From the NCBI RefSeq assembly GCF_000423845.1, contig NZ_AUIT01000013.1:1-46882 (forward strand): DNA of 46,882 nt. The letters are read 5' to 3'. Made by a program: the position numbers and the translations under genes. This DNA is from Thermodesulfobacterium hveragerdense DSM 12571. GTDB lineage: Bacteria; Desulfobacterota; Thermodesulfobacteria; Thermodesulfobacteriales; Thermodesulfobacteriaceae. Under the pieces are notes generated by a model. The model was not told where the DNA came from and did no database searches. It worked only from the letters and a program-made list of their open reading frames with translations. Below, piece after piece: positions 4,057 through 35,609 of the stretch (its first letter is position 1; each line of letters starts with the position of its first letter).

Positions 4057-4719
4057 TTGGGGCAGAAAGTTAATCCTATTGGGTTGAGAATCGGTATTAC
4101 CAGAACTTGGGATTCTCGTTGGGTTGCTAAACCTTCAGAATTTCCTAAATACGTATATGAGGATTATTTGATAAGAAAATTTTTGAAAGAGAAATACTTT
4201 CATGCTGGGATATCTAAGATTGATATAGAGAGGGCAGCTAACAAGGTTAGGGTGATTATCTATTCGGCTCGTCCAGGAATAGTGATAGGTAAGAAAGGCG
4301 CTGAGATAGAAAAGATAAAAAATGAGTTAGGGAAGTTAATCAAGGAAAGAGAGTTTGAAGTTTTGGTGAACGAGGTTAGGAGACCAGAGCTTGAAGCCCA
4401 GTTGGTAGCAGAAAACATAGCTACCCAAATAGAAAGAAGGGTTTCTTTTAGAAGGGCGATGAAAAGAGCTGTTTCTTTGGTGATGCGTTTTGGGGCTCAG
4501 GGGGTTAAAGTTCAGTGTTCTGGAAGACTTGGAGGTGCTGAAATAGCGAGGAGTGAATGGTATAGGGTTGGAAGAGTTCCTCTTTCTACTTTAAGGGCTG
4601 ACATAGACTACGGTTTTGCTACCGCAGTAACCAAATATGGAAGTATAGGGGTAAAGGTTTGGGTTTTTAAAGGAGAAGTTTTACCTGAAAAAGAAGGGCA
4701 GGAAAGGTTAGTTATCTAA
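4057..4719 (+). CDS. rpsC: 30S ribosomal protein S3
   Basis: S3 forms part of the mRNA entry channel and has helicase-like activity with S4 and S5. The 220-residue product begins with the universal [21 protein letters not shown], contains a type II KH domain ([19 protein letters not shown], about residues 70-88) and the C-terminal [18 protein letters not shown] segment. The start is TTG at 4057, chosen because GAGGAGG at 4044-4050 is optimally placed and the next residues match the S3 N-terminus exactly. It is one of several non-ATG starts in this operon. Confidence 0.97.
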
Positions 4720-4740
4720 AAAATATAGGGGTGAGAAGAC

Positions 4741-5157
4741 ATGTTGCTCCAACCTAAAAAAACTAAATACAGGAAGCAACAAAAAGGAAGGGTTAGAGGA
4801 AAGGCCACCAGTGGGCATACGGTTGAGTTTGGAGAATATGGGTTAAAGGTGCTTGAAGGTGGTTGGTTGACTGCAAGACAGATAGAGGCAGGCCGTGTAG
4901 CTATAGTCAGGGTAGCAAAAAAGGGAGCTAAGGTTTGGATCAGGGTTTTTCCAGACAAACCGATTACCAAAAAACCTGCAGAAACCCGTATGGGAAAGGG
5001 TAAAGGAGCTGTGGAAGAGTGGGTAGCTGTAGTTAAGCCAGGTAAGATTATATATGAGATAGCAGGTGTTCCCGAAGAGGTGGCTAAAGAAGCTTTAAGA
5101 ATGGCTGCCAGTAAGATGCCTTTTAAATGTAAAATAGTTAGTAGGGAGGAGTTTTAA
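4741..5157 (+). CDS. rplP: 50S ribosomal protein L16
   Basis: L16 is a late assembly protein near the A site that helps position tRNA. The 138-residue protein has the usual [17 protein letters not shown] start, the conserved [26 protein letters not shown] segment and the C-terminal [16 protein letters not shown]. The stop codon shares its last base with the rpmC start (TAATG), which suggests translational coupling. The GGGGTGAGAAG binding site precedes the ATG. Confidence 0.97.
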
Positions 5158-5354
5158 TGAAGGCCCGTGATTTGAGGGAGTTGTCCATCCCTGAGTTAAA
5201 AGAAAAGTTGGCAAGCTTAAGAGAAGAGCTTTTTAATCTCAGGTTTCAGAAAACCATTTACAAACTTGAAAACCCTATGAGAATTAGACAGGTTAAAAGA
5301 GATATTGCCAAAGTTTTGACAGTTATAAGAGAAAAAGAACTTAACATACGATAG
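5157..5354 (+). CDS. rpmC: 50S ribosomal protein L29
   Basis: L29 is a small two-helix protein at the tunnel exit beside L23. The 65-residue product contains the diagnostic [10 protein letters not shown] helix and the [20 protein letters not shown]-terminal helix. Its ATG overlaps the rplP stop by one base. The GGGAGGAG upstream, inside the end of rplP, serves as ribosome-binding site. Order rplP-rpmC-rpsQ is standard. Confidence 0.96.
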
Positions 5355-5367
5355 GGTGAGGATGGAT

Positions 5368-5652
5368 ATGAGTGGAAAAAAAAGTTTTATAGGGACGGTG
5401 GTCAGTGATAAGATGGATAAGACCGTAGTAGTCATGGTAGAGACCTTGGTAAAGCATCCCCTTTACGGGAAATACATCAAAAGAAGAAAGAAATATATGG
5501 CCCACGATGAAAATAACGAATGTAAGATAGGTGATAAGGTTTTGATCGAAGAGACAAGGCCCCTTTCTCGTAGAAAAAGATGGAGGGTAAGAGAGATCAT
5601 AGAGAAGGCCAAAGTGTTAGAGGTTAAAGAGGATTTAGAAGGGGGTGAATAA
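5368..5652 (+). CDS. rpsQ: 30S ribosomal protein S17
   Basis: S17 is a primary 16S rRNA binder with an OB fold. The product has the family core [20 protein letters not shown] and [20 protein letters not shown], then [18 protein letters not shown]. The frame is open from a GTG at 5356, and there are ATGs at 5362 and 5368. The last is preferred because GTGAGG at 5356-5361 then has normal spacing and the protein starts as most S17 proteins do. This gives 94 residues; the acidic tail after RWRVREI is an extension seen in several thermophiles. Confidence 0.95.
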
Positions 5653-23047: not shown

Positions 23048-23254
23048 TCTCCAGAAATTATCATTCTTAGATTTGGGATTTTAATTTTTATAATTAGAAA
23101 ATCCATCGAAAATCAGCATTTAAATTCATTCTACCTCTGAAAATTTTCGTTTCTATACCTTGACTAAGGAAAAAAACATATAAAAATTATTTTTATAAAA
23201 CATACAAATAATTTTTTGTTAATAAACTTTAGTTTAGAGAAAAAAGGGACTACT
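23048..23254. other. AT-rich intergenic region upstream of the cas operon
   Basis: No convincing gene is present. A TTGACT at 23160-23165 could be a -35 box for the cas operon, but no good -10 lies at the right distance; AT-rich candidates such as TATAAA at 23179-23184 are too close. The promoter of the operon must lie here or within the terminator-flanking sequence. The composition drops sharply toward A and T compared with lon. Confidence 0.4.
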
Positions 23255-24046
23255 ATGAGGCTTCAATTTAGATTTAAAGTTAACAAACTTCCTATACTTT
23301 ATCGACACAGATTTATGGCTTTGATAAAAGAAGCTATATCCAATCAAGATCTTCGTTATAAGAAGATGCTTTATCCAGATAAAAAAGCTGGTTTTTCTAA
23401 AGTAGTAAAACCCTTTACTTTTGCAGTGGTTCTTCCAAAAAATAAAGAAATAAAAAAAGAAAAAATACAGATTGATGAATCAACCTCTATTAAAGATCTG
23501 GTCTTTTACTTTTCACCAGACTCCTATATATCTTTTTTTGTGAGTTCTTTTGATTTAGAGTTTATGATTAATCTTTATAATGGTCTGCTTGAGCTTGGTA
23601 GTTTTGATTTTGGAGGAGGTATTATTCTTCATCATCAAAAAACACATCTCATTAAAGAAAAGAAAATTAACTCTAATGAAGTAATATTTAAAACCTTATC
23701 ACCAATTTTGATTGAAAGTAAAGATGGTACTCCTTTACTTCCAGTTGATGGGCAACTGGATGATTTTAATCTGCATTTTAATGAAATCCATAAAAGAATT
23801 TTTAAAGATACAAGAGGCAAAGAACCTATGGAGGAGTTTTTTCTGGAACCAATATTAATAAAAAAATCAGTTGTCAAACACACGTTAAAAGGATTTAGAG
23901 AACAGACAGGGAAACCTTACATGATGCTTACGTGTTTTGATGGTTGTTTCAAATTAAAAGGAAATCCAGAGGATTTGCAGTTGCTATATCAAGCAGGAGT
24001 AGGCTTAAGGACAGGTCAGGGCTTTGGCATGGTAGAGGTGGTATAG
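23255..24046 (+). CDS. cas6: CRISPR-associated endoribonuclease Cas6
   Basis: Cas6 cuts the repeat in pre-crRNA to give mature guides. The product has two ferredoxin-like halves and ends in the glycine-rich loop GVGLRTGQGFGMVEVV that defines the family. An N-terminal LPILYRHRFMALIKEAI supplies a candidate catalytic His. The frame is open from a TTG at 23216, but the ATG at 23255 is preferred: AAAAAGGG stands just before it, and Cas6 proteins begin with a strand such as MRLQFRFKV. This gives 263 residues. It is the first gene of the cas operon, and its stop directly abuts the next ATG. Confidence 0.93.
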   Translation: MRLQFRFKVNKLPILYRHRFMALIKEAISNQDLRYKKMLYPDKKAGFSKVVKPFTFAVVLPKNKEIKKEKIQIDESTSIKDLVFYFSPDSYISFFVSSFDLEFMINLYNGLLELGSFDFGGGIILHHQKTHLIKEKKINSNEVIFKTLSPILIESKDGTPLLPVDGQLDDFNLHFNEIHKRIFKDTRGKEPMEEFFLEPILIKKSVVKHTLKGFREQTGKPYMMLTCFDGCFKLKGNPEDLQLLYQAGVGLRTGQGFGMVEVV

Positions 24047-24316
24047 ATGGATAGAAAAGAAAAAAATCTTAATAAAATAAAGCCTCTTTTCTGGGACTAT
24101 GAATGGGATTCTGTAAAGAAAAACTTAAACTCTCCATTTGTAATTGCAAGAGTTCTTGAAATGGGAAATCCCGAGCAGTTTAAAATTTTAGTTTCAGTAG
24201 TAGGTGATGACAAGATTATAAAATTTTTACAGGAAAGTGGTAAAAGACTACTTTCCAGAAAGTCATTGAATTTCTGGAGAATTTACTATGAGAAAAAAGC
24301 TAAAAGAAGAGCATAG
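24047..24316 (+). CDS. DUF6922-like putative antitoxin embedded in the cas operon
   Basis: This 89-residue protein contains LFWDYEWDSVKKNLNSPFVIARVLEMGNPEQFKIL and ends in FWRIYYEKKAKRRA, the pattern of small DUF6922 proteins that usually stand just upstream of AbiEii-type nucleotidyltransferase toxins. Such proteins are taken to be antitoxins; that is inference from genomic association. The ATG follows the cas6 stop with no gap, with AGAGGTGG inside cas6 as binding site, and its last 29 nt overlap the following toxin-like gene. It may be an inserted module kept for addiction, or a passenger. No catalytic residues are expected. Confidence 0.65.
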   Translation: MDRKEKNLNKIKPLFWDYEWDSVKKNLNSPFVIARVLEMGNPEQFKILVSVVGDDKIIKFLQESGKRLLSRKSLNFWRIYYEKKAKRRA

Positions 24317-24602
24317 GAAATCTGTCCAGAAGATCGAGGATTTCCTGAAGAAGGGTGATTTTTATCTTGCTGGTGGAACGGCAGTTTATTATTATCTGAA
24401 TCATAGAGAATCTCTTGATCTTGATTTCTTTACGAAGAGAAAAATTGACTTCAGAAATTGGAAGCCCATTTTTGAAAAATTTGAGATTATGGAATATACT
24501 GATTTTGAAGACGCCGATAAAGAAGGAGATTTGAAGATGATAAAAAAGATATCCTGGGATAAAATAAAGAAGTATTTTATAAAAAAGTTCGTAGAGGTGT
24601 AA
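24288..24602 (+). pseudogene. AbiEii-like nucleotidyltransferase toxin, shortened, probably internally deleted
   Basis: The N-terminal 65 residues carry the nucleotidyltransferase core FYLAGGTAVYYYLNHRESLDLDFF, with the Gly-Gly and the DxD metal motif expected of MNT/AbiEii toxins. The last 35 residues (EDADKEGDLKMIKKISWDKIKKYFIKKF) match the usual extreme C-terminus. Family members are about 190-220 residues long, so roughly 90 residues of the middle, including the third acidic residue region, seem to be missing, with the frame kept. At 104 residues it is probably inactive, although a minimal form cannot be excluded. It overlaps the antitoxin gene upstream and ends 3 nt before cas8. Confidence 0.6.
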
Positions 24603-24605
24603 GAT

Positions 24606-25814
24606 ATGCCAGATGGAAGCATAACACTATATCCTTCAAACTGGCTTTATAATGCAGGGGTGATTGGGTTTTTGAGAGTTATAGCAGAGGCACGTGGTGA
24701 ATCAGTTGTCGAAAATTGGATACAAGAAAATGGGACTGTTACAATTGATGTTGAGATTTTTAGAAATGCAATGGTTGGAGATAAAGAAATTCCAATCCCA
24801 AAATGTATGAAATACTTAGTTGAGTATCTTGTTAATGATGAAGATGTTAAAGAATGGCTTTATAAAAAAGATAAAAAGGGAATAACAAATAATGAAAAAT
24901 ACAAAGACATTGCTAATCAATTAGGAGATTTTGGCTATAAATTTATTCGGGCAGGTAATATGTTATTTGCCTCGAATATGCCATATCAAAATCTTGTTCA
25001 GTTAAGCGAGTGGAGTTCACTTGAATTTGCTAGGTTAGTAAGTAATTTGATTAAATATCCGAAAATAAAATCTAACATAACATGTGGTTTATGTAGCAAC
25101 AATAAAGTCTTAAATCCAAAGGTTGATAGTAAATTAGAGAATAGGTTATTCGTTTTCCAAGAACCACATATGAGATTACTAGGACCTTCAATAGGCAAGT
25201 TTCCCAATGCCTTCTGGAATTTCAATCACTCTATTTTAATATGTCCGCTTTGTGCTTATCTTATAATTCATCACCATGTTACTTTTGAGAGTGCAAGAAC
25301 ACAAAATGGTCAAATATTTATCAATGCTCCATCCTTCAAATTAATGTGGTATCTCAATAAATATGCCTCAGAGATTCTAAATAAAAGAAAGACTTATCAG
25401 CTCAAAGAGATATTAGGGATCAGTTTCATTGAGTTAGCACAGAAGGTTTTTACAACGCTCGGTGCATGGAGCATGATAAATATTGAGATGGTAATAAAAA
25501 ATAAAGATTCTATAGATTACTATTCTTTGCCTTATGAAGTTTCCAAGGTTATTTTAAATAAAGAAGTAGCTAGTTTAATCAGTCAGACAAATGAAGAATT
25601 TATTCTTGAGATTATATTAGATGGTAAATTTGATGAGTTGTTAACCCTTAATCAAAAAATTTTGCGTTATGCCATAACAAACTCCGGTGCATATGATGAT
25701 AAATATCTTTCAAAACTTAGAAATAAGGATGCCTACAGTCTGAAAAAACTTTCAACCATATTGCCTGAACTTTACGTAAAAATAGATAACATCTTAAAGA
25801 GAGGTGAACTATGA
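24606..25814 (+). CDS. cas8b: Type I-B Cascade large subunit Cas8 (Cst1, CXXC-CXXC family)
   Basis: The large subunit recognises the PAM and recruits Cas3. The 402-residue product has the two CxxC pairs that define the Cst1 group: CGLC at residues 160-163 and CPLC at 213-216, probably binding zinc. The first lines (ITLYPSNWLYNAGVIGFLRVIAE) also fit Cst1. It is on the short side for this subunit, and a separate helical gene overlaps its stop by 4 nt (ATGA), which suggests that the small-subunit part has become its own gene. The binding site is GAGGTGTAAG. Divergence of Cas8 proteins makes the exact subfamily less sure than the role. Confidence 0.85.
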   Translation: MPDGSITLYPSNWLYNAGVIGFLRVIAEARGESVVENWIQENGTVTIDVEIFRNAMVGDKEIPIPKCMKYLVEYLVNDEDVKEWLYKKDKKGITNNEKYKDIANQLGDFGYKFIRAGNMLFASNMPYQNLVQLSEWSSLEFARLVSNLIKYPKIKSNITCGLCSNNKVLNPKVDSKLENRLFVFQEPHMRLLGPSIGKFPNAFWNFNHSILICPLCAYLIIHHHVTFESARTQNGQIFINAPSFKLMWYLNKYASEILNKRKTYQLKEILGISFIELAQKVFTTLGAWSMINIEMVIKNKDSIDYYSLPYEVSKVILNKEVASLISQTNEEFILEIILDGKFDELLTLNQKILRYAITNSGAYDDKYLSKLRNKDAYSLKKLSTILPELYVKIDNILKRGEL

Positions 25815-26359
25815 GTATTTACGAAGAAATTTCTCGGAAATTAGATGAGTTAAACGAAAAGATAAAACCTGATAATGTTGATGAATGGTTAAATGATGTA
25901 AGAAGAACGGTAAACCTTTTTCTTGAAGGAGATAAAATATCTCAGTTTAGAAAAATGCTTGAATGTGTAGCAGATGAGTTGAAAGAAGATAAAAACAAAA
26001 CAGAACAACTTAGAAAACTTAAAGGGATCATAAATAATCTTGAAAAATCAGAGCCTGATTTCTTGATTGAGAGGATAAAAAAAGTGAGCTGGAAATACGC
26101 AAGTAAAGGTGATTTGAAAGAAGCAATCAACAAGAGTGCTCTTAGGCTTCTTGAACAAATCAGGCTTGGAAAAAGAGATGAAGTAATTGGTATATTAATG
26201 CGTATATTTACAACGAGAAATATTGAATTTCCCACAGAACTTTTAGAGGCACTTAAGCCGAAATATGATTTAAACCTTTTTAGAGCATTTATGTATGCTT
26301 TTTTAAGTGCTTTTACAACTGAAAAAAGTGAAACTAAAGAGGAGGTAGAAAATGAGTAA
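25811..26359 (+). CDS. Small helical protein between cas8 and cas7, candidate Cas11 small subunit
   Basis: I do not recognise this 182-residue protein by motif. It is charged and apparently all helical (EEISRKLDELNEKIKP; DELKEDKNKTEQLRKLKGIINNLEK), with a more hydrophobic C-terminal third (EVIGILMRIFTTRNIEFPTELLEALKPK; FRAFMYAFLSAF) that would suit an interface. It overlaps the cas8 stop by ATGA and its own stop overlaps cas7, the place where type I-A operons encode the small subunit Csa5. In most I-B systems the small subunit is instead made from an internal start within cas8. The Cas11 role is inferred from position, size and helicity only. Confidence 0.65.
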   Translation: MSIYEEISRKLDELNEKIKPDNVDEWLNDVRRTVNLFLEGDKISQFRKMLECVADELKEDKNKTEQLRKLKGIINNLEKSEPDFLIERIKKVSWKYASKGDLKEAINKSALRLLEQIRLGKRDEVIGILMRIFTTRNIEFPTELLEALKPKYDLNLFRAFMYAFLSAFTTEKSETKEEVENE

Positions 26360-27842
26360 AGAAAATCTCAAAATTAGAGATGATTTGAAGGGTATAACTT
26401 TTACCATTATATTTGAGGCTGATGCACTAAATAGAGATGAAAAAATCGGAGGAAACATCCCATCCATAAAGAAACTTACAAGATTTGGTAATAAAACTTA
26501 CAGTTATTTATCGCGAGTTGCGATGAGACATTATCTGTTTGAGACCCTTAGCAAGAATTATCCTAATGAATGGAAACCAGCAAATTGTATTGAATCTGGC
26601 ACAGGAGAGAAAAAGGTTGTTCAATTTGACTTGCAGACTCAGAATATTTTGACACATGCTGAACTTGATGCATTTGGTTATATGTTCACAATAAGTGGTC
26701 AGACGAGTATTACAAGGAAAGCACCTGTTGGTATCACAAAAGCAGTGGCATTAGAGACATGGGAAGGTGATATGCAATTTAATGCAAACCACGACCTTGC
26801 CAATAGGTGTAGAGCTAATCCTAATCCTGTTAACAAAGAAGAACATAAGTCTTTTTTTAAAGTGTCTTTTACCATAGATGTTGAAAAACTTGGATATGAT
26901 GAATGGTGGATTAAAGATTATAATTATGATGACACAAGTAAAAAACTAACATTGTTTTTATCTGAAAGAGGAACGGATGTAATTTTAAAGAATGTTAAGA
27001 AAGGAGAGGAAGAATTTCAATACTTTATTGATAATAAAGAAATAAGAATTGATGGACTAACATGTTATGTAGATAAAGAACTAATGGAAGAGAAGACAAA
27101 AAAGGATAAGAAAACTAAAGATGAGAAAAAATATATCACATTTAAAAGTAATTTATTGGAAAAAAAGAAAGAAGAACATATAACAGAAGAGTCTTCTGGA
27201 AATAAGGACAATTCAAAAGGCTCCAAAAATAAAGGCAAGTCAAAAACTTTTGAAATATATGAAGGGGACTATTCATTTGATGATGAACAAAATCTTTATC
27301 AATTTACTATAGGAAAATATTTTTATGATGAACAGAAAAACACTCTGATGCTATCAATGGTATTATTAGCACATACTATAGATGCTGAAAAAGAGCAAGG
27401 TGAAAAATATAAGATAATTAAAGATAATTTAAAGATTGGCCAGATAGAAATTAAAAATGAAGGGCAAAATAAAAAAGCCATTTTTCAATTGGAGGACCGA
27501 GAAAAACAAAAAAGACTTTATCAGATTCTTGAAGTTTTGCGAAATGGACTTATCTACCACAGTAGCGGAGAAAATTATGGGATAGTTCCACAGTTTATTA
27601 TTGCTGCTGGGCTTAAATTACCCATCCCAATATTTCACTCTTTTGTTGAACTTAACAGTTTTGATCGTTCTATTTTAGAGAATGCATACATACTTAAACA
27701 TGAAAAAAGTGATGCAAATCAAAATAAAAAGCTTATTTTTGCATATAAATCTGAAAAATTTAGAAATTTAGATGTCTCTGATGCCTGTGGTGATTGGTAT
27801 GAATTTCTAATGAGTTTAGGTCTTGGATGTGGAGAAAAATAA
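26352..27842 (+). CDS. cas7: Cascade backbone Cas7 (Cst2/DevR family) with a large insertion
   Basis: Cas7 subunits polymerise along the crRNA. The N-terminal part (GITFTIIFEADALNRDEKIGG; THAELDAFGYMF; RKAPVGITKAVAL) and the C-terminal part (LYQILEVLRNGLIYHSSGENYGIVPQFIIAAGLKLP) are typical of Cst2. Between about residues 180 and 390 there is a long insertion, largely Lys/Glu/Asp/Asn-rich with an apparently disordered centre (KKKEEHITEESSGNKDNSKG). The total of 496 residues compares with about 300 for the family. It overlaps the preceding gene by 8 nt and the cas5 start by one base (TAATG). Confidence 0.88.
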   Translation: MSKENLKIRDDLKGITFTIIFEADALNRDEKIGGNIPSIKKLTRFGNKTYSYLSRVAMRHYLFETLSKNYPNEWKPANCIESGTGEKKVVQFDLQTQNILTHAELDAFGYMFTISGQTSITRKAPVGITKAVALETWEGDMQFNANHDLANRCRANPNPVNKEEHKSFFKVSFTIDVEKLGYDEWWIKDYNYDDTSKKLTLFLSERGTDVILKNVKKGEEEFQYFIDNKEIRIDGLTCYVDKELMEEKTKKDKKTKDEKKYITFKSNLLEKKKEEHITEESSGNKDNSKGSKNKGKSKTFEIYEGDYSFDDEQNLYQFTIGKYFYDEQKNTLMLSMVLLAHTIDAEKEQGEKYKIIKDNLKIGQIEIKNEGQNKKAIFQLEDREKQKRLYQILEVLRNGLIYHSSGENYGIVPQFIIAAGLKLPIPIFHSFVELNSFDRSILENAYILKHEKSDANQNKKLIFAYKSEKFRNLDVSDACGDWYEFLMSLGLGCGEK

Positions 27843-28639
27843 TGGCACAGCAGGTTCTCAGAATTAAAATCTATCAGTCAGATGCCCATTATAGAATTCC
27901 TTTTAGTTATCAAAGAAGGTTTACCTATCCTATTCCGCCTCATTCTACTGTAAAAGGTTTGATATGTAATGTGATGGGAATTAAATCTAGTGAAGATGAA
28001 AAGTTTATAAATCTAAAACAAGGTTTGTCTCTTGCTATTTATGGAACTTATGAAAGTCTGGTGAAAGAATATTTATGGTTCAGAAATTTAGAAAAAGATA
28101 GTCATATTAGCAAATTCAAATCTGTAAAAAACCGAACAGTTGATAATATACCTAATCATCCTGGCGGACAAATGCCTGTAACTGTTGATGTTCTTCATAA
28201 TGTTGACTTGATTGTTTATGTTTATCATCCTGAATTAATGGAAGAGATTAGGCAAGCTTTTGAAAATCCATCAGCTCGACTTTCAATACTTCATCTTGGT
28301 AGAGCTGAAGATTGGATTGTTATTAAAGAAATTAAACTGATTGATATTATTAAGGATAATGTAAGTCAGCTTTCTTTCTTTGCCTGGATCCCCTCACCAG
28401 CTGACATTGATGATGAATTAATTCCAGACAAAGAAAATTATGAAAAATTTTACACACAGGTAAACGGAAATTTATTTAGACTGCCAATATTTTATGAAAT
28501 TACGAACTCTAATCAAAGAATATTCAACAGATATATTGAAGCCAAACTTTTTGAAAAGGGTGGATTTAGAAAACAAAGTTTTTATATGGACAGTGAATTG
28601 AAAATACCTTTATTTTTTGCAAAATTGAGGGCAGATTAA
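27842..28639 (+). CDS. cas5: Cascade subunit Cas5 (I-B type)
   Basis: Cas5 caps the 5' handle of the crRNA in Cascade. The product begins AQQVLRIKIYQSDAHYRIPFSYQRRFTYPIPPHSTVKGLICNVMG, the RAMP-like N-terminus with the proline-rich PPHSTVKGL segment found in Cas5 proteins. The frame is open from ATG 27827, but ATG 27842 is preferred: GGAG at 27831-27834 is then correctly placed and the start overlaps the cas7 stop by one base. This gives 265 residues. Cas3 starts 2 nt after the stop. Confidence 0.88.
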   Translation: MAQQVLRIKIYQSDAHYRIPFSYQRRFTYPIPPHSTVKGLICNVMGIKSSEDEKFINLKQGLSLAIYGTYESLVKEYLWFRNLEKDSHISKFKSVKNRTVDNIPNHPGGQMPVTVDVLHNVDLIVYVYHPELMEEIRQAFENPSARLSILHLGRAEDWIVIKEIKLIDIIKDNVSQLSFFAWIPSPADIDDELIPDKENYEKFYTQVNGNLFRLPIFYEITNSNQRIFNRYIEAKLFEKGGFRKQSFYMDSELKIPLFFAKLRAD

Positions 28640-28640
28640 T

Positions 28641-31250
28641 ATGGGTGAGATTTTAGCAAAAAGTAAGAAGGCTATTTCATTAAAAGAACATACAGGTGGG
28701 TTACTTAATCAGCTAAAAGTTTTAATAGAGAAAATTCCAAAACTTAGAGAATATGAAATATTACTTAAACTTGCTGCCTTTGCTCATGATTTGGGAAAAG
28801 TAGCCCCTTCTTTTCAAGTCTCGTTAAAAAATTGGAACTATACGCCTCGTCCGGTTTTTCCTGATTTGCCTCATAGTTTATTTTCTTTGCTATGGCTTGA
28901 TGAGAGTAAGATTAAAGAAAAAATAAACGATGAATTTGATAGGAAATTGCTCTTTTCTGCGATTGTTTTTCATCACTGGAGAGATAATTTTCAGGATATA
29001 TTATTTGGTACGGATAAAAAATTTAAAGAAGCTGTAGGCCTGTTATTGGAAAACGAAAGTTTAAGAAATGAGTTACTAAACAATCTGAAAAATCACTTTA
29101 AAGATAATGAATTAAAAGAATTTGCAGAAATTTTAGGTTTTAACAGTGATTTTGCAGAAACTGTTGTGCGGGGCACAGGTCTTTTTGATTTTTTAATTCC
29201 ACCTTATTATTCATACTTTTTGCCGTATAGATTAGAAATGAATTTGTCTCAGAAGAAAAAATGGATTAACCTTGCAGGTAATTTAATCAGAATTGATCAT
29301 TTTGTGTCTTATATTCAAGAAGAAGGGATTGAAGAAAGTATAGAAAAAGAAATACCCGATACTTCGTTTGTGAAGAATAATATTAAAACAGAGATAAGGG
29401 GAAAAATTAACGATAGTAAAAAGTCAATCTGGCAATTAGAAACATTTAACAATTATAAGGATAAAAACATAATTCTTATTGCCCCTACAGGTTCAGGAAA
29501 AACAGAGTTTGCATTTTTATGGGGAGCTGGGACTAAATTAATATTTACTCTGCCTTTAAGAACTGCTGTAAACTCTATTTATAATCGTTCATTGAAATAT
29601 TTTGGAGAGAACAATTGTGGGCTTTTACATTCAGATGCAGATATTTATTTGTTTACGGAAGATATAAAAATAGAAGGCGAATTACTAAGAGTCTTAAATA
29701 TGGCCAAGCATTTATCCTTTCCCGTGTTGATTTCTACAGGTGACCAGATTTTCCCCTCAGCTTTGAAATATCCGTATTACGAGAAAATTTATGCTACACT
29801 CGGTTATTCGAAATTGGTTATAGATGAAGTTCAGGCCTATGATCCAAAAGCAGTTGCTATAATAGTAAAACTTATAGAAGATATCGTAAAAATTGCCGGT
29901 AAGTTTTTATTAATGACGGCGACACTGCCTAATTTTGTAAAAAAAGCTATTGAAGAAAGAATAGGAAAAGAAAATTTTGAGATTATTGACCGGTATGAAA
30001 CTGGCGAATGTAAAAAAATTGGTAAGCATAAAGTAAAACTTTGTCAGGGTGATATTGAAGATAAAATTGATGTAATATTGAGTAAGGCGGAAAAAGGAAA
30101 AAGAGTGCTTGTTATTCTTAATACTGTTGAGAAAGCACAAAATGTTTATATAAAACTTAAAGAAAAGAATAATGATATTTATATTAAACTTATTCATTCA
30201 AAATTTACGCTTGAGGATAGGAAAAGACTTGAAGAAGAGATTGTTGGACACTATGATGAAAGTCAGAGATGGATTCCAGGGACTTTTGGCAATCCCAAAC
30301 CTGATGATGAAAGAGAAGGTAAAATACTTGTGGCTACACAGGTAGTTGAAGCTTCTTTGGATATAGATGCAGACATACTTTATACAGAACTTGCACCGAT
30401 AGATGCCCTTATCCAACGAATGGGACGGGTATTGAGGCGAATCAGATGTAAAGATACTTATAAAAAGTATTTAGGTTCAAAAGAACTTTCTGAACCTAAT
30501 GTTATAGTTTTTTACCAGAAGCCAGATGATAAAAATAAGTTAACCTCTGGAGCAGGAACTGTTTATCAAAATGACCTTTTAGCTTTTTCTCTTGCGTTGT
30601 TTTTGGGAGTCCCTGAGAATAAAATAAATGAACTAAAAGAGAAACATTGGAAAGAATTAAAAAAGAATAAACCAAAAACTAAAGAGACAATCACAAGCTT
30701 TTTAAATGATTTATTTAAGTTTCTTGGGAAAAATAATCAAGAAAATATTTCTTTTTTAACCGAAGAAGATAAAAAGTTATTGGTCGAAAAATTATATGAT
30801 CTTTTGCCAGTAAATTCTGGTTACTTACACGAGTTTTATAACACCCTTGAGATTCTTGATGCAGGCTATATGTCAGATAAAAAGCAAGAGGCATTGAGGA
30901 TTTTTAGAGAAATTTATACTGTTCCAGCTGTGCCGCAACAAAGAATAGAGGAGTTTGAAAAGGCTATAGAAGAATTTTTAAATAACGATACAATTAATTA
31001 TACAAAATTCAAGACTGATGTGCTTTCAAAATTCGTTGTAAATATAGATATCAGAAAATATTTCTATAACAATGCTTTGAATTTAAAAAATGCTTCATCC
31101 ATTGCGTATGAGATTGAAATTGATAATGAAAAAATAAAGAAAATTAAAAGATGGCTCAGTGATATTTACATCTTTGATGGAGAATATGATTCATGTTTGG
31201 GAGTTTACTTTGAGAGAGCAAATCATGGACTTTCAGGAGAAATTTGGTAA
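28641..31250 (+). CDS. cas3: CRISPR-associated helicase-nuclease Cas3
   Basis: Cas3 unwinds and degrades target DNA after Cascade binding. The N-terminal HD nuclease domain has His17 and HDLGK at about residues 49-53, with FHHWR further on. The superfamily 2 helicase domain has Walker A APTGSGKTEF (about 280-289), the DExx box variant DEVQ (about 395-398), motif III LMTATLP and motif VI QRMGRVLRR (about 592-600). The C-terminal domain extends to residue 869. HD and helicase are in one polypeptide. It begins 2 nt after cas5, and its stop overlaps the next start by one base. All catalytic motifs appear intact. Confidence 0.95.
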   Translation: MGEILAKSKKAISLKEHTGGLLNQLKVLIEKIPKLREYEILLKLAAFAHDLGKVAPSFQVSLKNWNYTPRPVFPDLPHSLFSLLWLDESKIKEKINDEFDRKLLFSAIVFHHWRDNFQDILFGTDKKFKEAVGLLLENESLRNELLNNLKNHFKDNELKEFAEILGFNSDFAETVVRGTGLFDFLIPPYYSYFLPYRLEMNLSQKKKWINLAGNLIRIDHFVSYIQEEGIEESIEKEIPDTSFVKNNIKTEIRGKINDSKKSIWQLETFNNYKDKNIILIAPTGSGKTEFAFLWGAGTKLIFTLPLRTAVNSIYNRSLKYFGENNCGLLHSDADIYLFTEDIKIEGELLRVLNMAKHLSFPVLISTGDQIFPSALKYPYYEKIYATLGYSKLVIDEVQAYDPKAVAIIVKLIEDIVKIAGKFLLMTATLPNFVKKAIEERIGKENFEIIDRYETGECKKIGKHKVKLCQGDIEDKIDVILSKAEKGKRVLVILNTVEKAQNVYIKLKEKNNDIYIKLIHSKFTLEDRKRLEEEIVGHYDESQRWIPGTFGNPKPDDEREGKILVATQVVEASLDIDADILYTELAPIDALIQRMGRVLRRIRCKDTYKKYLGSKELSEPNVIVFYQKPDDKNKLTSGAGTVYQNDLLAFSLALFLGVPENKINELKEKHWKELKKNKPKTKETITSFLNDLFKFLGKNNQENISFLTEEDKKLLVEKLYDLLPVNSGYLHEFYNTLEILDAGYMSDKKQEALRIFREIYTVPAVPQQRIEEFEKAIEEFLNNDTINYTKFKTDVLSKFVVNIDIRKYFYNNALNLKNASSIAYEIEIDNEKIKKIKRWLSDIYIFDGEYDSCLGVYFERANHGLSGEIW

Positions 31251-32308
31251 TGATGGACCAAACTTTCTTCATCCTTGAATCAGTTAACAATCCAAAATTC
31301 CCCTATCGCCTGACTATCAGGCAGGGGGAAAAGGTGCTTCTTGCTATAAGGGTTCAGGATAGATGGCTCAGGCAAAAGGGGAATATCTTTTGTATAAGAG
31401 AGGACAACAAAGAGCTTGACCCACCTGTTGAGGAAATTGAAAGAGTCCCTGTTGTTTCATTAAGGCGTTATGGAAAAAGATTAGCTATTGTTCTTGATAG
31501 ACCTATAAATAAACGATGTGATTTTCTTTTTTTAAAAAAGAAATACAAAACCAAAGAAGGTGAATACGAACAGATATTCTGGAGGACTCAAAGGGCTCTT
31601 ACTGAAAGGAGCCCAAGGGTTAAGCTCAGTACTTACCACAAAGGCAAACTAAATTTGATAGTGGATGCAAATGAAAGATATCCCTGGAAATTTCCTGAAT
31701 TTGAAATAAAGAAAGAGAAATTACCTGTGGGTGATTATGCATTGATTAACGAAACAGGCATAGTTGCAGTGGTAGAGAGAAAGACTTTTGACAATCTTCT
31801 TGCTGAATTTGGCAGAATGTCTGCGTTTCATCAGCAACTTGGAGAGCTTGAAGCATACAGGTATTCAGCAGTAGTAATAGAGGCAAATTACTCTGATTTC
31901 CTTAATCCTAAAAAGATTAAATTTTATACTCCAGCTTTTGCCGCCAAGGCTATTGCTGAGCTTTATGCGATGCATCCAAATCTCGCCATAGTATTTGCAG
32001 GCAATCGCAAACTTGCCAATGAATGGGCTTATAGATTTTTTTGTGCTATAAATGCTCATGAAAATGATACCCCACATGCAAAAGTCTCTGAAGTGATTGA
32101 AGAATACGGAGCCTCTCAGGAAACCAGGGGAGGGTTATATTTCGAATTAAGAAAGAGCATCATTGAAGGATTTCAAGAAGAGTTTACACTTTCAGAAATA
32201 AAAGAAAAATTTCCACATGCATCTGTTTCAACCATAAGAAAACTGCTTAATGATTTAAATAAAGAGGGTGTTATTACAAAGTACACCAAAGGCAGGAAAA
32301 GCTATTAG
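31250..32308 (+). CDS. ERCC4/XPF-type nuclease with winged-helix C-terminus, inside the cas operon
   Basis: The middle of the protein (about residues 130-275) is an ERCC4 nuclease domain: LIVDANERYPWKF, LPVGDYALINETG and VVERKTFDNLLAEFG reproduce the GD...ERK active-site layout of XPF/Mus81 proteins. The Asp that closes the usual ERKxxxD motif is not in register (ERKTFDN, so D is one residue early), which may affect catalysis. The first 120 residues are an unrecognised basic domain; the last 75 look like a winged helix (FTLSEIKEKFPHASVSTIRKLLNDLNKEG), suggesting DNA binding. The ATG at 31250 overlaps the cas3 stop and has AGGAGA at 31235-31240; cas4 follows after 19 nt. Its role in immunity or spacer acquisition is unknown. 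It appears less AT-rich than the preceding cas genes. Confidence 0.85.
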   Translation: MMDQTFFILESVNNPKFPYRLTIRQGEKVLLAIRVQDRWLRQKGNIFCIREDNKELDPPVEEIERVPVVSLRRYGKRLAIVLDRPINKRCDFLFLKKKYKTKEGEYEQIFWRTQRALTERSPRVKLSTYHKGKLNLIVDANERYPWKFPEFEIKKEKLPVGDYALINETGIVAVVERKTFDNLLAEFGRMSAFHQQLGELEAYRYSAVVIEANYSDFLNPKKIKFYTPAFAAKAIAELYAMHPNLAIVFAGNRKLANEWAYRFFCAINAHENDTPHAKVSEVIEEYGASQETRGGLYFELRKSIIEGFQEEFTLSEIKEKFPHASVSTIRKLLNDLNKEGVITKYTKGRKSY

Positions 32309-32327: not shown

Positions 32328-32852
32328 ATGAATGAATTAAAAGAAGATAGCTTTGACTTTCAAACACTTAAAACCAATGGTATCAAAGTAAACTATCTCT
32401 ATGTCTGCGAGCGCAAGCTCTGGCTTTTTGACAGGGGAATCCAGATGGAGTCAAAATCTGACAGAGTTCTTATGGGGAAACTTCTTGGAGAGTATTCATA
32501 CCCAAGAGATGAAAAAAAGGAAATACTTATTGACAACCTGATAAACATAGACATCGTTGGAAACAGTAACATAAGAGAAGTTAAATACAGTAACCGCCTT
32601 GCCCATGCAGATAGAATCCAGCTTCTTTATTATCTTTACTATCTAAAGCAGTTGGGTGTAGAAAAGCGAGGCATTATAAACTATCCTAAGATGCGAAAAC
32701 GAAAAGAAGTTATCCTAACGCCTGAATCAGAAAAAGAAGTTGAAGAAGCTTTGCTCAAAGTTTATGAAATAACAAAAATGGATAAACCTCCACCTCTTCA
32801 AAGAAAACCTTACTGCACTAAATGTGCTTATTATGAATTCTGCTGGGGATAA
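32328..32852 (+). CDS. cas4: CRISPR adaptation exonuclease Cas4
   Basis: Cas4 trims prespacers and selects PAM ends with Cas1-Cas2. The 174-residue product has the first cluster Cys in YLYVCERKLW (about residue 27), the RecB-like active site including REVKYS, and the C-terminal cluster ligands YCTKCAYYEFC (about 163-173), which gives the four Cys of an iron-sulfur cluster. It lies between the ERCC4 gene and cas1 (3-nt gap). Length is typical for Cas4a. Confidence 0.92.
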   Translation: MNELKEDSFDFQTLKTNGIKVNYLYVCERKLWLFDRGIQMESKSDRVLMGKLLGEYSYPRDEKKEILIDNLINIDIVGNSNIREVKYSNRLAHADRIQLLYYLYYLKQLGVEKRGIINYPKMRKRKEVILTPESEKEVEEALLKVYEITKMDKPPPLQRKPYCTKCAYYEFCWG

Positions 32853-32855
32853 AGC

Positions 32856-33833
32856 ATGAGAAACTACTATATTTTCTCAAATGGAAGACTGAAGCGAAAG
32901 GATAATACCATTTATATAGAAAACGAGAAGGGAGAGAAAAAAGCTATCCCCATTGAAGATGTAGATACAATCCATGTTTTTGGAGAAGTTGACTTAAACA
33001 GCAAAGTTCTTAATTTTCTCTGCCAGCACGGAAAGACTGTACATTTTTACAACTACTATGGATTCTACTCTGGAAGTCTCATGCCAAGAGAGAGAAACGT
33101 GTCAGGGCATCTTTTAGTAAAACAGGTTGAACATTATCTTGACTCAGAACGTAGATTTTATCTTGCTTTTTCCTTTGTAGAGGGTGCAATCTTTCACATG
33201 TTAAGAAATCTCAGAGAATACAAAAACACTGAAGGATTTCAGGAAAAAATCAAAAAAGAGTTAACTAATGCAATTGAGTCAAAAACTATTAGTGAGCTTA
33301 TGGGATGTGAGGGTAGGGCAAGAGATGTTTATTATGAAGCCTTCAATACTATTTTAAAATCCGATTTTTCAATAGAAAAAAGAGAAAAAAGACCTCCTAC
33401 AAATCCCGTTAATGCTTTAATTTCCTTTGCAAACAGCATGATTTACACAACAGTGTTGAATGAGATATATCATACCCAGCTTAACCCTACAATAAGCTAT
33501 CTTCATGAGCCAGGGCACAGGCGATACTCTCTAAGTCTTGATATTGCAGAGATATTTAAACCTCTCATAGCAGACCCAATTATATTTAAATTGATAAACA
33601 ACAAAATGCTCAGGCTTGATGACTTTGAGGAAGATGTAAATTATTGCTATCTGAATGACAGCGGTAGAAAAAAGTTTATTAAAGAATTTGACCAGAAGCT
33701 TACCACAACGATAAAGCACAGAAAAATGAAAAGAAATGTCTCTTACAGAACTATCATCAGAATTGAGTGCTACAAGCTCATTAAACATTTCATTGAAGAT
33801 GAAACATATGTGCCTTTTAAGGCGTGGTGGTGA
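32856..33833 (+). CDS. cas1: CRISPR integrase Cas1 (type I-B)
   Basis: Cas1 integrates new spacers at the leader-proximal repeat. The 325-residue protein starts MRNYYIFSNGRLKRKDNTIYIE and has the catalytic Glu in GCEGRARDVYYEAFN, the His in LHEPGHRRYSLSLDIAEIFKPLIADP and the Asp/Glu of the same segment. This layout fits Cas1 of I-B loci. It begins 3 nt after cas4 and ends 3 nt before cas2, consistent with an adaptation cassette cas4-cas1-cas2. Confidence 0.97.
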   Translation: MRNYYIFSNGRLKRKDNTIYIENEKGEKKAIPIEDVDTIHVFGEVDLNSKVLNFLCQHGKTVHFYNYYGFYSGSLMPRERNVSGHLLVKQVEHYLDSERRFYLAFSFVEGAIFHMLRNLREYKNTEGFQEKIKKELTNAIESKTISELMGCEGRARDVYYEAFNTILKSDFSIEKREKRPPTNPVNALISFANSMIYTTVLNEIYHTQLNPTISYLHEPGHRRYSLSLDIAEIFKPLIADPIIFKLINNKMLRLDDFEEDVNYCYLNDSGRKKFIKEFDQKLTTTIKHRKMKRNVSYRTIIRIECYKLIKHFIEDETYVPFKAWW

Positions 33834-33836
33834 AAT

Positions 33837-34103
33837 ATGCCGTATTTGATTGTTACATATGACATAGCAGAAGAAAGGCTAAATAAAGTGAGAAAAATTC
33901 TTAAAAAATACTTTATGTGGGTTCAGAATTCGGTTTTTGAGGGAGAGATTAGTGAGGGAAAGTTATTAAAGTGCAAGTTAGAGCTGGAAAAGGTAATCGA
34001 TAAAGAAAATGATTCTATATATTTTTACAGTCTTGAGAACAGGTTGAACTACAGAAAAACAGTCCTCGGAATTGAAAAGGATATGACAGGGAATATTTTA
34101 TGA
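33837..34103 (+). CDS. cas2: CRISPR adaptation protein Cas2
   Basis: Cas2 is the structural core of the Cas1-Cas2 integrase. The 88-residue product has the ferredoxin-like start PYLIVTYDIAEERLNKVRKIL, with the Asp of the first strand, and the FMWVQNSVFEGEI segment. It is the last cas gene, followed by the array leader. The length is normal. Confidence 0.95.
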   Translation: MPYLIVTYDIAEERLNKVRKILKKYFMWVQNSVFEGEISEGKLLKCKLELEKVIDKENDSIYFYSLENRLNYRKTVLGIEKDMTGNIL

Positions 34104-34315: not shown

Positions 34316-35522
34316 GGTTCATCTGAACCATGTGGGATATAAAGGTTGATATTCTAAGCTTAATGTTCCATGGTTTCAGTGGTTCATCTGAACCATGTGG
34401 GATATAAAGGTTTGATAGACGATGACAAGTATTTTTCATCTGGACGGGTTCATCTGAACCATGTGGGATATAAAGAATAAGAGATTTCATCTTGCTGCTT
34501 CTTAAGGGATAGGGTTCATCTGAACCATGTGGGATATAAAGCTGTGAGTCAGTGAGGGAGTTGACGGATGCGGTATGGGTTCATCTGAACCATGTGGGAT
34601 ATAAAGATCAAAACTTCTTCTTTTGTGAGCAAACTTACAATCGGTTCATCTGAACCATGTGGGATATAAAGAGTTTAAAGAAATCTTTGGTTTTGAACCA
34701 GAATTAGGGTTCATCTGAACCATGTGGGATATAAAGTTTTATAACCAATGTTATCCTGAAGAGGCAAAGATTTCGGTTCATCTGAACCATGTGGGATATA
34801 AAGTTGTAAACATTGCAGGTATAATCATTTCTGCAGCTCGGGTTCATCTGAACCATGTGGGATATAAAGTTTTATAACCAATGTTATCCTGAAGAGGCAA
34901 AGATTTCGGTTCATCTGAACCATGTGGGATATAAAGTTGTAAACATTGCAGGTATAATCATTTCTGCAGCTCGGGTTCATCTGAACCATGTGGGATATAA
35001 AGCCTATCTTTTTTCTTTTATTATAACATAGTTTTAAAGGTTCATCTGAACCATGTGGGATATAAAGTATGTATCTCAAAATATGTAAGAATTGATTTAG
35101 GATGGTTCATCTGAACCATGTGGGATATAAAGCCACAATTGCCTGCTCTACAATACTTTCAAGACACAGGTTCATCTGAACCATGTGGGATATAAAGGAA
35201 GATGCTAATGTATATGAAGTATTGACATATCAAGGTTCATCTGAACCATGTGGGATATAAAGGACTTTAGTTTAGAATTATTCTAATTTATCGGTTATGG
35301 TTCATCTGAACCATGTGGGATATAAAGGAGATTTTCTAAAAAATCCCTCTCGCTCTCCCACAAGGTTCATCTGAACCATGTGGGATATAAAGCTTGAACA
35401 TGTTTGTTATAAACTCATTCTTTTCATTGGTTCATCTGAACCATGTGGGATATAAAGATCGGGGCAGTGGCAGGGGCAAGAGTAAGAGAGTGCGGTTCAT
35501 CTGAACCATGTGGGATATAAAG
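34316..35522 (+). CRISPR. CRISPR array, 19 repeats of 29 bp and 18 spacers
   Basis: The repeat begins GGTTCATCTGAACC, a 6-bp dyad, continues ATGTGGG and ends ATATAAAG; all 19 copies read identically. Repeats start at 34316, 34381, 34447, 34513, 34578, 34643, 34708, 34775, 34841, 34908, 34974, 35039, 35104, 35169, 35234, 35299, 35364, 35429 and 35494. Spacers are 36-38 bp, mostly 36. The end of the repeat resembles the TGGGATTGAAAC end of many I-B and III repeats, so the plus strand is probably the crRNA strand with ATATAAAG as handle and the leader next to cas2. Spacers 7-8 recur exactly as spacers 9-10. Confidence 0.98.
34737..35002 (+). repeat. 133-bp tandem duplication within the CRISPR array
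   Basis: Positions 34737-34869 and 34870-35002 are identical. Each consists of a 38-bp spacer (ttttataacc...), a repeat, a 37-bp spacer (ttgtaaacat...) and a repeat. It looks like unequal crossing-over between repeats or re-integration of a two-spacer unit. Confidence 0.95.
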
Positions 35523-35609
35523 GGAACTCCCAAATCAATTGGCAATGTTAGAAATATTTTGTTTCTTTAGAAATTAGTAGTATATTTTAGTTAATGTATT
35601 CTTTTAACT
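35523..35609. other. Distal flank of the CRISPR array
   Basis: No repeat remnant is visible after the last full repeat. The sequence is AT-rich. On the minus strand a weak TTAAAA-N17-TATACT promoter could be drawn, but the left-side leader is the better candidate for transcription of the array. Confidence 0.4.

Follow-up and report, generated by a model that had tools for sequence, protein, structure and literature searches.

An ERCC4-type nuclease gene between cas3 and cas4 in type I-B CRISPR loci of thermophiles, a candidate portable accessory

We report on a gene for an ERCC4-type nuclease, a relative of the human repair nuclease XPF, that is embedded in the type I-B CRISPR operon of Thermodesulfobacterium hveragerdense DSM 12571 (GCF_000423845.1). 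The gene occupies positions 31250-32308 of the stretch analysed here (NZ_AUIT01000013.1, positions 1-46,882; hereafter the window), and the corresponding ERCC4 hit is the only one in the whole genome. Our data describe its location between cas3 and cas4, its predicted architecture and conserved catalytic residues, its movement together with cas4 and its dispensability across the lineage. The account we favour, and to which we give about an even chance, is that of a portable and facultative accessory nuclease with a DNA-processing function of its own, which is housed in the I-B locus and moves with cas4. According to this account, a branch of a widespread family of solo bacterial ERCC4 proteins would have settled in a variable cas3-cas4 slot of thermophile I-B loci. 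The protein probably has its own function and possibly helps in adaptation; a dedicated CRISPR role is no more than a possibility. In the literature searched, which included neither subscription papers nor supplements, we found no paper that places an ERCC4 gene within a cas operon.

Residence at the cas3-cas4 junction and movement with cas4

As the first-pass annotation of this DNA had stated, the open reading frame (ORF) coordinates place the ERCC4 gene in direct contact with cas3: its ATG and the cas3 TAA have one A in common, and cas4 starts 19 nt past its stop. Relatives were collected by scanning a single genome for each species, and the best 80 of 371 were retained; among these the closest from a named genome is the protein of Thermodesulfobacterium thermophilum DSM 1276 (96% identical). 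Six copies are at least 71% identical to that of the window, namely the window copy itself and those of T. thermophilum (G032, L008), Thermodesulfovibrio sp. N1 (G327, L009) and the Nitrospirota genomes G404, G461 and G538. All six, in two phyla, lie on the same strand at the cas3-cas4 junction. In the tree they form, together with one copy outside CRISPR (L020, 69% identical), a single branch with support 97/97. The six CRISPR copies sit beside three different effector modules, and one of their loci (G538) is decayed, with ERCC4 intact and cas3 and cas4 mere remnants. The distances between ERCC4 and cas4 in the five intact loci are 19, -8, -1, 5 and -16 bases (overlap or near contact). Since the junction recurs in six of six copies, in two phyla and with different effectors, chance neighbourhood is rejected for this six-genome group.

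A recurrent cas neighbourhood in diverse genomes was found for the CRISPR branch and not for the rest of the family. Across some 40 loci, solo homologs sit mostly among unrelated genes, and no recurring partner was detected among their 137 neighbours, which fall into 210 Pfam families with at most 4 proteins each. These neighbours include only one Cas1 (L015) and one Cas6 (L016); in L015 (3081-5651) cas1-cas2 lie immediately downstream of the solo-type copy, and in L016 (9153-11071) cas6 lies immediately upstream and is divergent. The solo bacterial "ERCC4 domain-containing proteins" of thermophiles, Bacillota and Actinobacteria, including plasmids, are full-length homologs, N-terminal domain included (28-75% identical); they differ from the window protein in lying outside cas operons, and the actinobacterial members end in an Lsr2-type domain. 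Among these, actinobacterial plasmids bear distant full-length relatives. In Desulfobacterota a cas4 match was found in 43 of the 297 genomes of the phylum scanned, and ERCC4 precedes cas4 only in two Thermodesulfobacterium genomes. Taken together, the ERCC4 homologs do not constitute a CRISPR family. The first-pass annotation had reasoned that homologs found mostly outside CRISPR loci would argue for a chance neighbour; the distribution is indeed of this kind, and the conclusion nevertheless fails for the branch with six of six copies at one junction. Cas1 is present somewhere in the genome of 30 of 49 homolog carriers, a count that has no background rate and was not used as evidence. A phage source was also considered and rejected: annotated phages gave no match, and in viral contigs the single protein matched nothing and the alignment only two distant ERCC4-domain hits.

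The comparison with T. thermophilum indicates what the gene moves with. DNA homology between the two loci spans cas6 and its neighbours, breaks over the entire effector block and restarts 12 bases inside the ERCC4 gene, with ERCC4 and cas4 at 94.7% DNA identity, while the cas3 genes next to ERCC4 are 29% identical. The cas3 of G404 is of the T. thermophilum type, and the effector of G461 is of a third type. Because the effector, including cas3, has been exchanged and ERCC4 has been retained with cas4, its stable partner is cas4 and not cas3. For the same reason we consider it very unlikely that the nuclease is a helper of Cas3 interference that cuts or clears branched target DNA resulting from Cas3 unwinding. 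The adjacency and the one-base overlap with cas3 in the window speak for such a helper; against it, the neighbouring cas3 belongs to different groups in different genomes, and the cas3 stop lies 40-69 bases from ERCC4 in L009 and G404. Adaptation modules are known to mix freely with effector modules (PMC5704561), and the ERCC4 gene would travel with cas4, usually also with cas1-cas2, during such exchanges. The gene thus resembles a part of the I-B adaptation module in that it overlaps or adjoins cas4 and is exchanged jointly with it; it differs from Cas4 in that its product is of another nuclease family and is missing from most modules of the same lineage. The I-B cas4 and cas1 of T. thermophilum are separated by an inserted type III-B Cmr module (Cas10, Csx1; L008 11616-19202), and cas1 lies 7.6 kb from the ERCC4-cas4 pair.

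Within the same cas4-cas1 lineage (cas4 55-84% and cas1 65-87% identical to those of the window) ERCC4 is missing in 8 of 13 loci. Presence in most loci of the lineage, as for a core I-B component, was not observed, in agreement with the earlier statement that the gene is not a standard part of such systems, and this patchy presence means that adaptation does not require ERCC4. Mapped on the cas1 tree and on the cas4 tree, its presence needs four changes each, and about half of the shuffles need no more. Moreover, the ERCC4-less cas3-cas4 junctions vary: four are short (G715, G478, G610 and G616), two hold a UPF0149/SEC-C gene (G487 and G647) and two an AAA_14/DUF4143 ATPase (G540 and G388). 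In other words, the junction behaves as a cargo slot. The slot protein of the UPF0149 type has a C-terminal SEC-C motif (L198, 7455-8237; L201, about 4696-5442). A UPF0149/SEC-C gene is also found in L020 (8161-8889), upstream of and overlapping the non-CRISPR ERCC4 gene, and its product is 45-46% identical to the slot protein of two other genomes. Given close relatives without the gene and a family mostly outside CRISPR, ERCC4 is better described as an optional passenger or helper than as a core CRISPR part.

Predicted architecture and catalytic residues

The gene and its predicted domains are as follows.

31250-32308, forward strand: ERCC4-type nuclease gene, 352 amino acids, three domains (ORF, Pfam ERCC4, AlphaFold2 model and ratio of nonsynonymous to synonymous substitution rates, dN/dS)
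31259-31603, forward strand: N-terminal domain, residues 4-118, LigD 3'-phosphoesterase-like fold without catalytic His/Asp (predicted structure)
31640-32068, forward strand: ERCC4 nuclease domain, residues 131-273, with D139, E142, D162, E176 and K178 (fold match and motif residues)
32123-32305, forward strand: C-terminal winged-helix domain, residues 292-352 (modelled helices and weak winged-helix matches)

The product matches Pfam ERCC4 with E=2.5e-9, above the family cut-off, and the AlphaFold2 model of the whole protein, computed from 46 homologs, has a mean predicted local distance difference test (pLDDT) score of 88.5. Residues 131-273 are nearest to the Hef nuclease domain of Pyrococcus furiosus (Z 15.7, root-mean-square deviation 2.0, 127 aligned), followed by Aeropyrum XPF and then MUS81. 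The active-site layout read by the first-pass annotation is borne out, i.e. VDANER (D139, E142), GD (G161, D162) and ERK (E176-R177-K178) are invariant or nearly so in the 46 homologs, down to about 30% identity. It was also right that the last Asp is out of register: in the GDXnERKX3D motif GD and ERK are invariant, and the position of the last Asp in XPF is N182 here. This position is Asn in most of the protein's lineage and Asp in actinobacterial homologs. Being common across the lineage, the Asn is not a local defect, and local degeneration of the active site was rejected. Comparison with the T. thermophilum gene gave a dN/dS of 0.23, i.e. purifying selection, a value that resembles that of cas6 by one method.

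Judged from the conserved residues, the enzyme is probably active. We consider it unlikely that the protein is instead a pseudo-enzyme or regulator with little or no nuclease activity, binding DNA and controlling the cas operon through its winged helix and barrel. The winged-helix end, the dead phosphoesterase-like barrel (see below) and the Asn at the final position of the ERKxxxD motif would fit such a regulator. Near-invariance of D139, E142, GD and ERK in 46 divergent homologs is, however, unexpected for a dead nuclease; the same protein occurs far from cas operons, and the actinobacterial homologs with the canonical last Asp have an Lsr2-type DNA-binding domain at the C-terminus instead.

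With XPF, MUS81 and Hef the protein shares the ERCC4 nuclease fold and the VDxxE, GD and ERK residues, and it differs from them in that no helicase domain and no helix-hairpin-helix tail were found, in the barrel in front and the winged helix behind, and in the Asn for the last Asp. No helix-hairpin-helix family in Pfam matched the window protein. The model supports a winged helix at the C-terminus instead, as was first read from the sequence, with weak matches of residues 292-352 to winged-helix chains (Z at most 6.9).

The N-terminal domain, which had been left without an assignment, was modelled alone from 37 homologs (pLDDT 81). Among its structural matches all five listed entries of the LigD 3'-phosphoesterase (PE) take rows 1-5, with Z 10.6 (3p43), 9.5, 8.6, 8.6 and 7.9; the sixth row has Z 3.4. 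Foldseek alone gave no match to the domain at E 0.001 or better, and none of the sequence routes to its fold (Pfam, phmmer, profile search of solved structures and hhalign) was significant. With hhalign against 18 LigD_N sequences the probability was 0.4%, which is not significant, the short alignment nonetheless falling on the same N-terminal start, and LigD is absent among the Pfam families listed for 46 family members. Since Foldseek and the sequence routes gave nothing significant, the assignment of a PE-like fold rests on the second look with VIA-align 2. The PE of LigD has a metal/phosphate site in which His42, His48 and Asp50 are catalytic and Arg52 and His84 bind the phosphate (PMC8656161); these residues are not conserved here. 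At the positions aligned with the metal ligands (His, His, Asp) and the phosphate ligands (Arg, His, Tyr) we find Val, Pro, Arg and Thr; no counterparts of the His/Asp/Arg ligands and no conserved His were found in the 37 homologs, and residues 1-120 of the window protein contain no His at all. For this reason we describe the fold as PE-like but lacking the active site of the PE, and an active LigD-type phosphoesterase was rejected. Going by the modelled fold, the barrel may bind 3' ends. In Francisella-like and alphaproteobacterial loci (L037, L039 and L042) an extra copy of the N-terminal domain stands in front, giving proteins of 462-476 amino acids.

The CRISPR locus and its other junctions

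The operon in the window is a complete type I-B operon with the order cas6-cas8b-cas11-cas7-cas5-cas3-ERCC4-cas4-cas1-cas2 and 19 CRISPR repeats downstream.

23249-24046, forward strand: cas6
24606-28639, forward strand: I-B effector genes cas8b, cas11, cas7 and cas5, swapped en bloc with cas3 in T. thermophilum
28641-31250, forward strand: cas3 (HD and helicase), upstream neighbour, overlapping the ERCC4 start by one base
32328-32852, forward strand: cas4, downstream neighbour and most stable partner of the ERCC4 gene
32856-33833, forward strand: cas1 (TIGR03641)
33837-34103, forward strand: cas2 (TIGR01573)
34316-35523, strand not assigned: CRISPR array, 19 repeats, period 65-67 bases

Between cas6 and cas8b (24047-24602) the window holds two genes: that for DUF6922 is intact, and that for an AbiEii-type nucleotidyltransferase is apparently shortened internally. 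In T. thermophilum (L008 4261-4888) DUF6922 is kept and the AbiEii gene misses a different part, a pattern that would fit two separate decays of an addiction pair. A presumed large subunit (L008 4895-6019, 374 amino acids) encoded in the effector block of T. thermophilum has no PADLOC model match at 1e-5. In relatives (L198, L202 and L203), where names were taken from reading the sequence, the cas6-cas8 junction holds a RelBE-like pair and two ORFs resembling ORF6N-type proteins (G487), an AbrB/PIN pair (G388) or a four-helix-type protein (G478). More generally, the junctions in these I-B loci resemble slots for cargo genes.

Function, alternatives and significance

If the portable accessory reading is right, the basic job of the nuclease would be independent of CRISPR, namely to act in repair or defence on DNA that is branched or has damaged ends. 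A dimer or monomer would bind duplex DNA via the winged helix, and the catalytically dead barrel would dock a branch point or a 3' end. The ERCC4 domain (D139, E142, D162, E176 and K178) would then nick near that junction in the manner of XPF, MUS81 and Hef. Being presumably co-expressed with cas3 and cas4, the nuclease may optionally also clean up ends that Cas3 leaves in DNA, or Cas1-Cas2 intermediates that are branched. Activity, substrate and contribution to CRISPR are here what we infer from the features described above.

Several observations weigh against this reading. That six of six copies reside at one junction, that the gene overlaps cas4 and that it is under purifying selection could equally fit a real role in adaptation; the patchiness could instead reflect loss of a useful accessory, and the cas genes beside the solo-type copies in L015 and L016 may hint that CRISPR proximity is not neutral. 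A possible, though less probable, alternative is a dedicated adaptation accessory working with Cas4-Cas1-Cas2, which trims or flap-cuts prespacer 3' ends or resolves half-integrated branched intermediates, leaving a clean 3'-OH. The gene is coupled to cas4 and stays with it over two module exchanges and three effector types, the CRISPR copies make up a single branch apart from one exception, and the N-terminal domain has the fold of an enzyme that heals 3' ends. Its joint movement with cas4 and this 3'-end-type fold speak for the alternative, as does the known shuffling of adaptation modules against effectors. On the other side, cas4-cas1 systems of the same lineage work, or at least persist, without ERCC4, its presence tracks neither the cas1 nor the cas4 tree, it outlives cas4 in G538, the T. 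thermophilum cas1 is distant from the ERCC4-cas4 pair, and the PE metal site is gone. The more specific version, in which the dead PE-like barrel, ERCC4 domain and winged helix constitute a new architecture recruited as a dedicated Cas4-Cas1-Cas2 accessory for prespacer 3' ends or branched integration intermediates, appears to us slightly more doubtful still. The patchiness, the alternative slot occupants and the intact orphan copy in G538 favour a function independent of CRISPR. Both a Cas3 helper and a dead regulator are less likely than these two leading readings.

Prespacer 3'-end processing and the settling of branched integration intermediates are only partly understood beyond a few model systems. 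A presumably structure-specific XPF-type nuclease that travels with cas4 is a direct and testable candidate in cultivable thermophiles, with sister loci with and without the ERCC4 gene as natural controls. Even as a mere passenger, the gene defines a family of bacterial ERCC4 proteins whose order of domains we did not find described in the literature searched, and it shows junctions of I-B loci as slots for exchangeable cargo genes.

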